Shown here piece by piece: positions 27,213 through 31,571 of a stretch of 64,000 nt of DNA; the stretch's first letter is position 1; each line of letters begins with the position of its first letter. A program made the position numbers and the translations under genes. The notes below the pieces were generated by a model, which was not told the origin of the DNA, did no database searches, and saw only the letters and a list, made by a program, of their open reading frames with translations. Source of the stretch: Ureibacillus sp. FSL W7-1570 (GTDB taxonomy: Bacteria; Bacillota; Bacilli; Bacillales_A; Planococcaceae); NCBI RefSeq assembly GCF_038593265.1, contig NZ_CP151979.1, positions 2,549,001 through 2,613,000 of the forward strand, written 5' to 3'.

Positions 27213-27803
<591 letters not shown>

Positions 27804-27840
27804 TCGATTGTTGAATGATTTTGAGGAGGAACATCATTTC

Positions 27841-29139
27841 ATGACAAATGGAAAAGCTATAACTCTAGGAATACAGCATTTACTGGCCATGTATGCAGGT
27901 GCGATATTGGTGCCGTTGATTATTGGTGGTTCATTAGGTTTTGATGAGCAGCAAATGACATACTTAGTCGCAATCGACATTATGATGTGCGGGATTGCTA
28001 CATTGCTGCAAGTGATGAGAGGGAAAGTTTTTGGGATTGGATTGCCTGTTGTATTAGGATGTACTTTTACAGCCGTATTCCCGATTATATCAATTGGCCA
28101 AAGTAAAGGAATCGGCGCCATTTACGGCTCCATCATTGCTTCAGGGCTGATTGTCATCCTCATATCAAGAGTATTCGGAAAGTTGGTAAAATTTTTCCCT
28201 CCAGTCGTAACGGGTTCTGTTGTAACGATTATTGCGATTTCCTTAGTTCCCGTGGCTATGAATAATATGGGCGGCGGACAAGGGGCTGAAGATTTTGCCT
28301 CAGCGTCCAACATTGCTTTAGCGATGATAACACTATTCATCATTTTATTGATTTATCGTTTTGCCACAGGTTTTATCCGTTCTATCTCCATATTATTAGG
28401 ATTAGTATTTGGAACAATTGTAGGTATGTTTATGGGGAAAGTGGATTTTTCACCTGTCAAAGAAGCAGGATGGTTTCATATGGTTCAGCCCTTTTATTTT
28501 GGCACACCAACCTTTGATTTGGCTTCCATCATTACAATGACCCTTGTTGCGATGGTGTCATTGGTGGAATCCAGCGGCGTCTATTTCGCATTAGGCGATA
28601 TTGAGAAAAAGCGGATTTCGGCGGAAGATTTGGCCCGCGGGTATCGTTCGGAAGGGTTGGCATCCATCATCGGAGGAATTTTTAATGCTTTCCCATATAC
28701 AACTTTCTCCCAAAATGTGGGCCTCATCAAAATGACAGGGGTGAAGGAAAGAAAAATCATCGTCATTACTGGTGTGATGTTGGTGGCATTAGGCTTTTTG
28801 CCAAAAATTGCGGCGCTCACAACCATTATTCCAACATCTGTTTTAGGCGGGGCCATGCTTGCCATGTTTGGAATGGTGTTGACGCAAGGGATTACGATGC
28901 TGGCTCCTGAGATATTAAAATCACCGGAAAATACAATGATTGTTGCGATTTCGGTTGCCCTTGGAGCAGGGGTTGCCTTTGTTCCGAATATTTTCGAAGT
29001 ATTGCCAGAGAGCCTGTCCATTTTAACATCCAATGGAATTGTGTGCGGTTCTTTATCTGCCATCGTGTTAAACATTTTATTTAATATGGTTGGTCCGAAA
29101 AAAGCGAAAACAGTGGCCGCAACAACTGTGGAAGAATAA
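27841..29139 (+). CDS. pbuX: Xanthine permease
   Basis: A NAT/NCS2 family carrier of 432 residues with about 14 membrane segments. I start at ATG 27841, after GAGGAGG; a frame from 27787 would overlap xpt and add a charged extension. The NAT signature lies in TLVAMVSLVESSGVYFALGD and FPYTTFSQNVGLIKMTGVKER (QNVGLIxxT being the family core). It follows xpt directly and supplies its substrate. Confidence 0.96.
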   Translation: MTNGKAITLGIQHLLAMYAGAILVPLIIGGSLGFDEQQMTYLVAIDIMMCGIATLLQVMRGKVFGIGLPVVLGCTFTAVFPIISIGQSKGIGAIYGSIIASGLIVILISRVFGKLVKFFPPVVTGSVVTIIAISLVPVAMNNMGGGQGAEDFASASNIALAMITLFIILLIYRFATGFIRSISILLGLVFGTIVGMFMGKVDFSPVKEAGWFHMVQPFYFGTPTFDLASIITMTLVAMVSLVESSGVYFALGDIEKKRISAEDLARGYRSEGLASIIGGIFNAFPYTTFSQNVGLIKMTGVKERKIIVITGVMLVALGFLPKIAALTTIIPTSVLGGAMLAMFGMVLTQGITMLAPEILKSPENTMIVAISVALGAGVAFVPNIFEVLPESLSILTSNGIVCGSLSAIVLNILFNMVGPKKAKTVAATTVEE

Positions 29140-29203: not shown

Positions 29204-30592
29204 TTAAGCATTTGGATAAATCATTTTCTTTGGATCCACATATTGGTCGAATTGTTCTTCGGTTAATAAACCTAGGGCAAGAGCTGCTTCTTTTAACGTT
29301 GTTCCTTCCGCATGGGCTTTTTTCGCAATTTTTGCCGCATTTTCATAGCCGATATAAGGGTTCAAGGCCGTTACAAGCATCAAAGAGTTTTCCAAGTTGC
29401 GTTTAAGCACTTCATGGTTAGGTTCAATGCCGACTGCACATTTGTCGTTAAAGGATTTCATGGCATCTGCAAGCAATCGCGCTGATTGCAGGAAGTTATA
29501 AATAATGACCGGTTTAAATACGTTCAGTTCAAAGTTGCCTTGGCTGGCTGCAAAGGCGATTGTTGCATCGTTACCCACCACTTGGGTAACTACCATTGTC
29601 AATGCTTCGGATTGTGTAGGGTTTACTTTGCCAGGCATGATGGAGCTTCCCGGTTCGTTGGCAGGGATCGTAATTTCGCCGATGCCGCTGCGAGGACCGC
29701 TGGCAAGCCATCTTACATCGTTGGCAATTTTCATTAAATCCACTGCCAATGCTTTCAATGCGCCATGAGCTGCAACGATTTCATCATGGCTTGTCAACGC
29801 ATGGAATTTATTTGGAGAAGAAACGAATTTTTTGCCGGTGAGATTACTGATTTCTTCCGCCACCATGTCGCCGAATTTCGGATGGGCGTTGATGCCTGTA
29901 CCAACGGCTGTACCACCGATGGCCAAGCTTTTTAAGTACTCCGTATTTTGTTTAATCATTTCTTCGGAACGTTCAAGCATGTAGTGCCAGCCGCTGATTT
30001 CTTGCCCAAGCGTTAAAGGTGTTGCATCTTGCAAGTGGGTGCGGCCGATTTTGATAATATCTTTGAAAGCCTCAGATTTGTCTTTTAATGTATTTTTCAA
30101 TAGTTCTAACCGAGGAAGTAAATAGTCTTCCACCATTTGAACAGCGGCGATATGCAATGCGGTCGGGAATGTGTCGTTGGAACTTTGGCTCATATTGACA
30201 TCATCATTTGGATGCACTTTTTCAGAAGAGCCTTGTTCCTCCAATAGCTGATTTGCGCGGTGGGCAATGACTTCATTCACATTCATGTTGGATTGGGTAC
30301 CGCTTCCTGTTTGCCAAACCACAAGCGGGAATTGGTCATCCCATTTGCCTTCAAGAATTTCATCAGCTGCTGTAATGATGGCATCTGCTTTGGCAGGTGA
30401 CAGTTTATTTAATTTTTTATTGGCGAGTGCTGCGGATTTTTTTAAAATGGCAAAGGCACGGATCACTTCTTTCGGCATTTTTTCTGTGCCGATTTGGAAG
30501 TTTTCTTTACTGCGTTGGGTTTGTGCACCCCAAATTTTATCAGCCGGAACACGTACTTCTCCAAGCGTATCTCTTTCAATACGGTATTCCAT
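29204..30592 (-). CDS. fumC: Class II fumarase
   Basis: A 462-residue, iron-independent fumarate hydratase of the TCA cycle. It starts at ATG 30592, 11 bases after AAAGGAG; 30 upstream in-frame codons are non-coding in character. The start [23 protein letters not shown] and the superfamily signature [13 protein letters not shown] are present, as is the catalytic His region [16 protein letters not shown]. The upstream region carries a perfect Fur box and a structured transcript (separate entries), so iron-linked expression is possible. Confidence 0.96.
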
Positions 30593-30671
30593 CTTTGATA
30601 CAACTCCTTTATCAATATAATTGGTTGGTATCTGTATTTTAACCCAAAAAGAGAATCCATAATAGAAATTT

Positions 30672-30807
30672 GGCTGCAACATGCCAGTCAGTTGCAGCCT
30701 AGAAATGTCTATTCATATAGGGGGATATAGACATAGTTGGAGAAAATAATTTGGAAAATACTTTTCCGAGATATTTTTTGGGGGTACAGCTCGGAATTTT
30801 TTTCTTT
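30672..30807 (-). ncRNA. Putative Fur-controlled structured RNA with C-rich loops
   Basis: A minus-strand transcript from the Fur-box promoter would begin near 30807. It would form three hairpins: TTCCGAG/CTCGGAA enclosing a loop with CCCCC (30764-30796); ATGTCTAT/ATAGACAT enclosing TCCCCCT (30705-30734); and a perfect GGCTGCAAC/GTTGCAGCC stem (30672-30699). Unpaired C-runs presented on hairpins are how FsrA- and RsaE-type small RNAs attack G-rich ribosome sites. No T tract follows the last stem, so this could instead be the first part of a 215-base fumC leader. Confidence 0.45.
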
Positions 30808-30809
30808 AC

Positions 30810-30828
30810 GATAATGATAATCATTATC
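30810..30828. promoter_or_regulatory. Fur box, perfect consensus
   Basis: GATAATGATAATCATTATC matches the 19-base Fur consensus at every position. It overlaps the -10 region of a minus-strand promoter, so iron-loaded Fur would block that transcript. Confidence 0.92.
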
Positions 30829-30842
30829 AATTAAAAAGTCAA
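30814..30842 (-). promoter_or_regulatory. Promoter under the Fur box
   Basis: Minus-strand TTGACT (30842-30837) and TATCAT (30819-30814) with a 17-base spacer. The predicted start is near 30807, reading toward fumC. Confidence 0.65.
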
Positions 30843-30870
30843 CAGGGAATTCAAAATAAATGATGAAAAT

Positions 30871-31425
30871 TTACCACTCCGCTCTTTGCATTTCTTCGGC
30901 AATGGTTTGCAAATCGTAAGAAGTGATGGTCAAGAGCTCATATTCATTCCGCTCCATATATTTTTCCACAAGCCTTTTCAAATATTTCGGGGATCCTTCA
31001 TGTTCTTCATCGTAGACAAGCAATAAAGCATCGGTGTTTTGGATGATGAATTTATCTTTCTCAACAAATTGCCAAGGGGCTTCATACGGCCTTTTTGTAA
31101 CACTCGTCACAAAATCGGCTTTGCCCAGAATATAAGCGTATTCGGCTTGCTTTTCTTCATTCCAGTTTTTCTCCATTTCCAAAAAAGGAGTGATGACGGC
31201 ATATTTTAAATGGGGAAATGCTTTTTTTAATTCAATCACGACTTCCGCAGTCCATGTTTCCACACCTGGTTGTCCGCTGATGATGACCCATTCCAGTCCT
31301 TCATCAATCAAAGTTCTCAATTCATGTTCGATTGCTTTTTTAATCACTTGAATGCCCGGATGTTTTTTGGTGAAAATGCCCAGCTCATGGGGTCTGTATC
31401 CGGAAACGTAAAGCGATTTAATCAT
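30871..31425 (-). CDS. YpsA/DUF1273 SLOG-family protein
   Basis: A 184-residue Rossmann-like protein. I choose ATG 31425, six bases after AGTGAGGG, rather than the ATG at 31431, which touches that ribosome site. SLYVSGYRPHELGIF and WVIISGQPGVETWTAEVVIELK match the YpsA signature; the SGQ(P)G and GxE positions belong to the SLOG nucleotide-binding fold. B. subtilis YpsA affects cell division and is proposed to sense a nucleotide-like ligand. It ends only 29 bases before the Fur-controlled promoter. Confidence 0.9.
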   Translation of the reverse strand: MIKSLYVSGYRPHELGIFTKKHPGIQVIKKAIEHELRTLIDEGLEWVIISGQPGVETWTAEVVIELKKAFPHLKYAVITPFLEMEKNWNEEKQAEYAYILGKADFVTSVTKRPYEAPWQFVEKDKFIIQNTDALLLVYDEEHEGSPKYLKRLVEKYMERNEYELLTITSYDLQTIAEEMQRAEW

Positions 31426-31571
31426 CTTCATCCCTCACTTTTGTACCTTTACTATATCGAATGATCAATGGAAATTCAAAATTGGGCGCGCTGATTTTTG
31501 ATCTTATATGTACCAATGGTCAGTTACGGGCAGTTTCAACAATGGCGATTTGGAAAAAAGGATTAATAAGA

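Follow-up and report, generated by a model that had tools for sequence, protein, structure and literature searches.

Iron-sparing repression of Fe-S enzymes in Escherichia coli is exerted by RyhB, an Hfq-dependent small RNA encoded by a separate gene. Iron-sparing small RNAs are reported to be non-orthologous across lineages, and the excerpt of the IsrR report used here presents RyhB as a sequence-unrelated, non-orthologous analogue of IsrR (PMC9410917). As described in the portions of two papers on which we draw, IsrR of Staphylococcus is Fur controlled, has two Fur boxes, is a separate gene conserved in that genus, and counts aconitase and SDH among its targets (PMC9410917, PMC11257911). In Bacillus subtilis, excerpted accounts give FsrA (RF02273) as an 84-nt RNA helped by FbpABC (PMC12871923) that pairs with the ribosome sites of the iron-enzyme mRNAs citB and sdhCAB (PMC11257911). 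The consulted part of a Pseudomonas fluorescens study reports that, under iron limitation, FumC rises behind a putative Fur motif and class I fumarase protein falls (PMC3377617).

The locus analyzed here lies in a window of 64,000 nt from Ureibacillus sp. FSL W7-1570 (NZ_CP151979.1, 2,549,001-2,613,000; genus code g1, family Caryophanaceae per NCBI). Its own genome is coded G000; the genera of relatives carry codes (g1, g13, g14, and so on), as do genomes (G) and loci (L). Same-genus genome G090 contains the U. massiliensis leader without a single change, and G029 matches U. thermosphaericus DSM 10633 over the available part of the leader. The regulatory logic would be that of FsrA, IsrR, and RyhB, with predicted iron-sparing repression of Fe-S enzymes. 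Likeness to FsrA, as excerpted, lies in Fur control (here a box recognized by sequence only), C-rich regions, and pairing with ribosome sites (here predicted). The layout resembles that described for IsrR, which in the excerpts has two stem-loops whose loops expose C-rich, single-stranded sequence, a further hairpin, and a terminator (PMC9410917, PMC11257911). C-rich loops in two successive hairpins occur here in H1 and H2, in the window's clade only, and the window has one Fur box (up to 3 mismatches) where IsrR is described with two. Those IsrR excerpts describe neither a fumC leader nor a loop against an Fe-S fumarase (PMC9410917, PMC11257911). The Pseudomonas fumC operon likewise places iron-free FumC behind a Fur motif, but its PrrF1/2 small RNAs are separate genes, and the part of that paper used here describes no regulatory RNA in the fumC leader (PMC3377617). 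What sets the Ureibacillus RNA apart from the known systems is its place in the fumC leader and a loop predicted to act in antisense on the Fe-S fumarase.

The Fur box, promoter, and hairpins ahead of fumC

The features of the locus are as follows.

30810..30828, palindromic, no strand assigned: Fur box, 19/19, overlapping the promoter spacer and -10
30814..30842, minus strand: promoter TTGACT-17-TATCAT, 10/12, a consensus match only
30764..30796, minus strand: hairpin H1, loop CUGUACCCCCAAAAAAUAU, with CCCCC at 30780-30784
30774..30784, minus strand: CCCCCAAAAAA in H1, 11 nt complementary to the Shine-Dalgarno (SD) region of the class I Fe-S fumarase gene
30739..30746, minus strand: UUUUCUCC, conserved also in standalone RNAs
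30706..30733, minus strand: hairpin H2, with CCCCC at 30720-30724
30715..30726, minus strand: AUCCCCCUAUAU in H2, 12 nt complementary to the acnA SD region
30672..30699, minus strand: hairpin H3, a perfect 9-bp stem, terminator-like without a U tract
29204..30592, minus strand: fumC, class II (iron-free) fumarase, 462 aa (TIGR00979, 791 bits, cut-off 665)
30871..31431, minus strand: upstream same-strand gene, NF010181/PRK13660

The original prediction of a perfect Fur box overlapping a minus-strand promoter is borne out: the box has no mismatches to GATAATGATWATCATTATC, with a mean of 0.04 matches expected in shuffles, and is the sole match in the window with up to 3 mismatches. The promoter-like site lies 28 nt past the end of the minus-strand PRK13660-family gene, presumably YpsA-like, and transcription would be expected to start near 30807. 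As first claimed, fumC follows on the same strand about 215 nt from this promoter, with its ATG at 30592-30590. An in-frame ATG at 30682 was rejected as the fumC start, being without an SD and absent in G010. In fumC leaders of g1 and g13 (L044 and L075, for example), a conserved GGGTATA...TACATATA-like stretch lies between terminator and fumC ribosome-binding site and may belong to a promoter for fumC. Another Fur box of the genome that is also perfect (L002 near 1501, G000:C1:2095302-2095337) stands directly 5' of a lipoprotein-like reading frame.

The predicted fold of three hairpins, two with CCCCC and the third a perfect 9-bp stem, was recovered. Taken singly, H1, H2, and H3 fold with z of -3.5, -2.3, and -4.2 (7/200 shuffles are as stable as H2), and the 150-nt leader piece reaches z -5.2, with 0/200 shuffles equally stable. 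The minimum free energy fold of the whole leader contains alternative pairings: the H2 C-run is partly paired, and sequence 5' of H2 pairs with sequence 3' of H3. H1 to H3 are predicted to be stable, yet other folds of the leader are possible.

The fumC-proximal RNA set matches no family in Rfam 15, FsrA included. The RF02273 model recovered the B. subtilis control and found nothing in the Ureibacillus genome, and FsrA does not appear when the interval is searched down to E ≤ 10 or 18 related loci down to E ≤ 3. By this model the RNA is not FsrA, and the suggestion that it replaces FsrA in this lineage fits. Sub-threshold matches in the interval and the 18 related loci (miRNAs, PrrF at 14.6 bits, sok, and others) were taken as chance. 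At gathering score, the only Rfam match in the whole window is a purine riboswitch (RF00167, 27007-27108, plus strand, 93 bits), 5' of same-strand genes at 27231-27803 and 27787-29139, which we take to be phosphoribosyltransferase-like and purine permease-like.

Conservation, terminators, and a standalone relative

We took the 701 nt 5' of fumC from 80 of 151 searched genomes and scored a Fur box of at least 16/19 with TTGA upstream, no more than 450 nt from fumC, together with a C-run of four or more. Box and TTGA occur in 53/80 regions and are joined by a C-run in 50/80 (g1 15/17, g13 16/16, g14 15/15, g15 1/1, g19 3/3), and five genera thus retain the RNA next to the gene for the iron-free fumarase. 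The three g16 regions have the Fur box in 3/3 and no C-run. The test fails in 25 regions from 13 other genera, among them G075 with an 18/19 box lacking TTGA. Three g7 genomes (L096, L097, and L098) have a Fur-like box (14/19) some 30 nt 5' of fumC with no RNA between, raising the question of direct Fur control of fumC without a leader RNA.

When C-runs were held unpaired, 52/54 lay within a hairpin of five or more pairs (mean z -2.68), the weakest being the H1 of G046 (z +0.9), where H1 has broken down; many g13 C-runs do pair when the full leader is folded without constraint. H1 covaries: across 31 aligned hairpins, both-sided changes fall at 6/9 pairs, a count reached by 7/500 shuffles, and both-sided cells number 19 versus 7.9 in shuffles (0/500). 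The number of H1 pair types is not raised (400/500 shuffles), and sliding the register by -1 leaves 67% of cells paired versus 82% in register. RNAalifold gave no pairs on MAFFT alignments A1 and A3, because the stems shift by a base. H2 was seen in the window's clade only (G000, G010, G029, G046, and G156), and covariation over these five sequences is minimal, with one compensatory (both-sided) change and an unfavourable covariation term. Two C-loops are found in that clade only, and the remaining fumC-proximal RNAs have one. The fumC-proximal RNAs of L074 and L077 (G132 and G108) are 180-235 nt longer than those of close relatives; the added sequence separates UUUUCUCC from the C-loop hairpin and resembles a small insertion element. 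With this conservation and covariation and the leader z of -5.2, a Fur box near fumC accompanied by chance hairpins and no functional RNA is very improbable.

Terminators were scored as a stem then at least 6 T of 8, between C-run and fumC. They are present in 16/16 leaders of g13, 13/15 of g14, 1/1 of g15, 1/3 of g19, and 3/15 of g1. Because those of g13 and g14 are strong, the RNA there looks like a small RNA gene 5' of fumC. The absence of a T tract after the last hairpin, noted from the start, stands: 4 T occur among the 8 nt 3' of H3 in the window and 3-5 T of 8 in its clade, and 12/15 Ureibacillus leaders lack the tail of 6 or more. The terminator in the window's clade therefore looks leaky, and no intrinsic terminator that would end a discrete transcript is seen there.

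A related RNA was found via Fur-box matches elsewhere. One of its loops presents UUUUCUCC and a second CCCCC(C); it ends in a terminator and has no Rfam match in the loci tested (standalone loci: L008, L009, L011, L013-L024, L026, L028-L031, L118-L126, L129-L137, L140-L149, and L151-L155). In 24 sequences both-sided changes occur at 11/17 pairs (38/500 shuffles reach that), with 51 both-sided cells versus 21.1 shuffled (0/500); the structure used for this alignment (A3) was derived by folding single sequences under constraint, so the pair count leans towards that structure. A model of this RNA, R1, matches at E ≤ 1e-4 in 77/151 genomes of 13 genera, 24 of the 77 having supplied training sequences. 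Three g16 genomes (G016:C34, G034:C3, and G050:C23) each have two matches separated by about 240 nt, which are tandem copies, and three strong matches in G145:C1 are dispersed copies.

In the window's clade, R1 finds nothing at E ≤ 1 in either G000 or G046, and gives weak matches in G010 (0.084, not at fumC) and G029 (0.96). R1 performs poorly on seven Ureibacillus copies (17.6-25.4 bits for four, none for three), and loss of the standalone RNA in the window's clade is therefore provisional. Within the window R1 matches the fumC leader and nothing else (17.0 bits, E 0.053), which hints weakly that leader and standalone RNA are related.

These observations bear on a simpler account, in which the locus makes only a discrete Fur-controlled small RNA that ends with H3, a separate promoter serves fumC, and their neighbourhood is inherited synteny. 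The strong terminators between RNA and fumC in g13, g14, and g15 would suit it, as would the related RNA standing alone elsewhere and further weak promoter-like sites ahead of fumC in a consensus scan. It sits poorly with the T-poor sequence after H3 in the window's clade and with the five-genus pairing of RNA and iron-free fumarase gene, and we regard it as rather unlikely.

Start sites as predicted targets

The target genes and the fumarase swap were absent from the original prediction and are added here. Targets were scored by ungapped complementarity of the C-run ±10 nt, a choice made because the duplexes that RNAduplex returned for the whole RNA sprawled too widely to be useful. On this measure acnA scores 13.5 against the loops, the Fe-S fumarase 11.5, and sdhC 10.0, and 49 roughly called window gene starts reach at most 9.0 against the same loops (mean 5.9, sd 1.4).

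The aconitase AcnA (TIGR01341, 1427 bits) has an SD region, AATATAGGGGGATTACATATG, complementary to AUCCCCCUAUAU of H2 over 12-13 nt in 4/4 clade genomes. The 12-mer occurs 3, 3, 2, and 2 times in G000, G010, G029, and G046, with one RNA gene and one acnA SD in each; the reversed 12-mer, as a control, occurs 2, 1, 1, and 2 times. The extra G000 12-mer, ATATAGGGGGAT (L174 near 1501, G000:C1:1419110-1419121), lies just 5' of the start codon of an ABC-type ATPase, presumably CysA-like, a possible further target, and the extra G010 12-mer is at no evident start. Shuffling the loop flanks around the C-run equalled the acnA match in 47, 150, 70, and 71 of 5000 trials in the four genomes, uncorrected.

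Fe-S fumarase complementarity involves H1. In addition to FumC, G000 has a gene for a protein of 516 aa that combines both FumA/TtdA-type halves (TIGR00722, 220 bits; TIGR00723, 177 bits; above cut-off). E. coli-type FumA and tartrate dehydratase models fall below their cut-offs on it, so the protein may be a fumarase or a tartrate dehydratase. Its SD region, ATTTTTTTTGGGGGGAAAATAATATG, matches CCCCCAAAAAA over 11 nt in G000 and 12 nt in both G010 and G029, that is, in 3/3 genomes read; in G029 the H1 loop and the fumarase start have both changed and a 12-nt match is kept. Swapped H1/fumarase pairs still match over 9-12 nt, an own-partner advantage of only 0-2 nt, and loop-flank shuffles gave 112, 268, and 107 of 5000 in the three genomes, uncorrected. 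One shorter-type Fe-S hydrolyase-family protein, read in G113 (L260, 299 aa), has no matching start. These single-target complementarities are modest predictions (p about 0.01-0.05 before correction).

Two other genes were considered. sdhC matches H1 over 7 nt (UACCCCC), with an own-partner preference that is weak with all loops (445/20,000) and absent with standalone loops (6600/20,000). The fetched sdhC starts (L220-L244 and L254-L259) have 5-7 G then TA in 31/31, 5' of the presumed TTG start. leuC was rejected as a target, having no G-run at its start.

Beyond the clade, 40 further acnA starts include 31 with GGGGG and 9 without. The g13 loop GUUCCCCCCAGUU is complementary to acnA start AACTAGGGGGAAC, and the g19 loop UGUCCCCCCAGA to TCTAGGGGGACA, each with one mismatch; standalone loops align with acnA starts as CCCCCUAUUUA with TAAATAGGGGG in G113, G119, and G137 and as CCCCCUAAUUA with TAATTAGGGGG in G081. 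For an own-partner test we hand-picked 21 genomes, one per loop/start type, from those with data (the mis-called acnA start of G012 was left out). Own pairs score 8.86 versus 7.63 (sd 0.25) when permuted, with 0/20,000 permutations as high and kinship left in; shared ancestry inflates this test. Permutations as high number 60/20,000 for fumC-proximal loops alone (15 genomes) and 442/20,000 for standalone loops alone (16 genomes). In 6/21 genomes (G149, G074, G063, G014, G018, and G004) the genome's own acnA does not outscore the average of the other genomes' acnA. Two patterns count against a simple loop-to-acnA rule: g2, g5, and g11 have the standalone RNA yet AGGAGG at acnA, and g6, g7, g10, g17, and g18 have GGGGG at acnA without a fumC-proximal RNA. 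Loop flanks and aconitase start sites appear to change together across the family.

Chance pairing between a C-run and purine-rich SD regions is the premise of another account, a Fur-controlled 5' leader of fumC whose hairpins are only stabilizing or cis-acting. The modest single-target shuffles and GGGGG at 8/49 window gene starts lend it some weight, and there is precedent in Pseudomonas for fumC being controlled by Fur, as the excerpt cited shows (PMC3377617). We judge it improbable, given that C-run and loop position are conserved across genera while stems change, that own acnA partners are preferred across 21 genomes, and that terminators stand in related genera.

Proposed mechanism and its meaning

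Small RNA and fumC leader had been offered as alternatives; both fit, and the evidence favours both together. Conserved C-loops with stem covariation, terminators in related genera, the standalone relative, and acnA/Fe-S fumarase complementarity argue for the small RNA, and the same-strand Fur promoter and the weakness of the U tract that follows H3 in the window's clade for the leader. On balance we lean towards a single Fur-repressed unit in which the first 150 nt or so would be an iron-sparing regulatory RNA against acnA and the Fe-S fumarase, and read-through would yield the fumC mRNA.

With iron present, Fur would sit on the promoter; when iron is scarce, Fur would be lifted and the RNA made. 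The H2 C-loop may then pair with the acnA SD region, and the H1 C-loop with that of the class I Fe-S fumarase, each blocking translation. H3 would resemble a terminator whose U tract has eroded and which polymerase may pass, so that FumC would rise when the Fe-S fumarase falls. Elsewhere, in the related genera, the RNA would mostly end at a strong terminator, and a second, standalone Fur-box RNA exists; in the window's clade, where no standalone copy was detected, the leader carries two C-loops. Because FumC rises and class I fumarase falls in P. fluorescens, as far as the excerpt describes it (PMC3377617), such a physiological swap is plausible.

The Fur-box RNAs conserved across Ureibacillus and its relatives, which match nothing in Rfam 15, appear to be new, as do the complementarities of the H2 loop to the acnA SD and of the H1 loop to the Fe-S fumarase SD; the searched listings of open-licence PMC papers showed none on such an RNA in the Ureibacillus family. 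More tentatively, and with somewhat more doubt than conviction, we propose that one transcript is an isozyme switch, with antisense loops against the Fe-S fumarase and aconitase starts on the same RNA that encodes the iron-free fumarase. If the fumarase link is true, trans control and the replacement enzyme would be fused in one RNA, and the messenger of the substitute enzyme would silence the enzyme it replaces.
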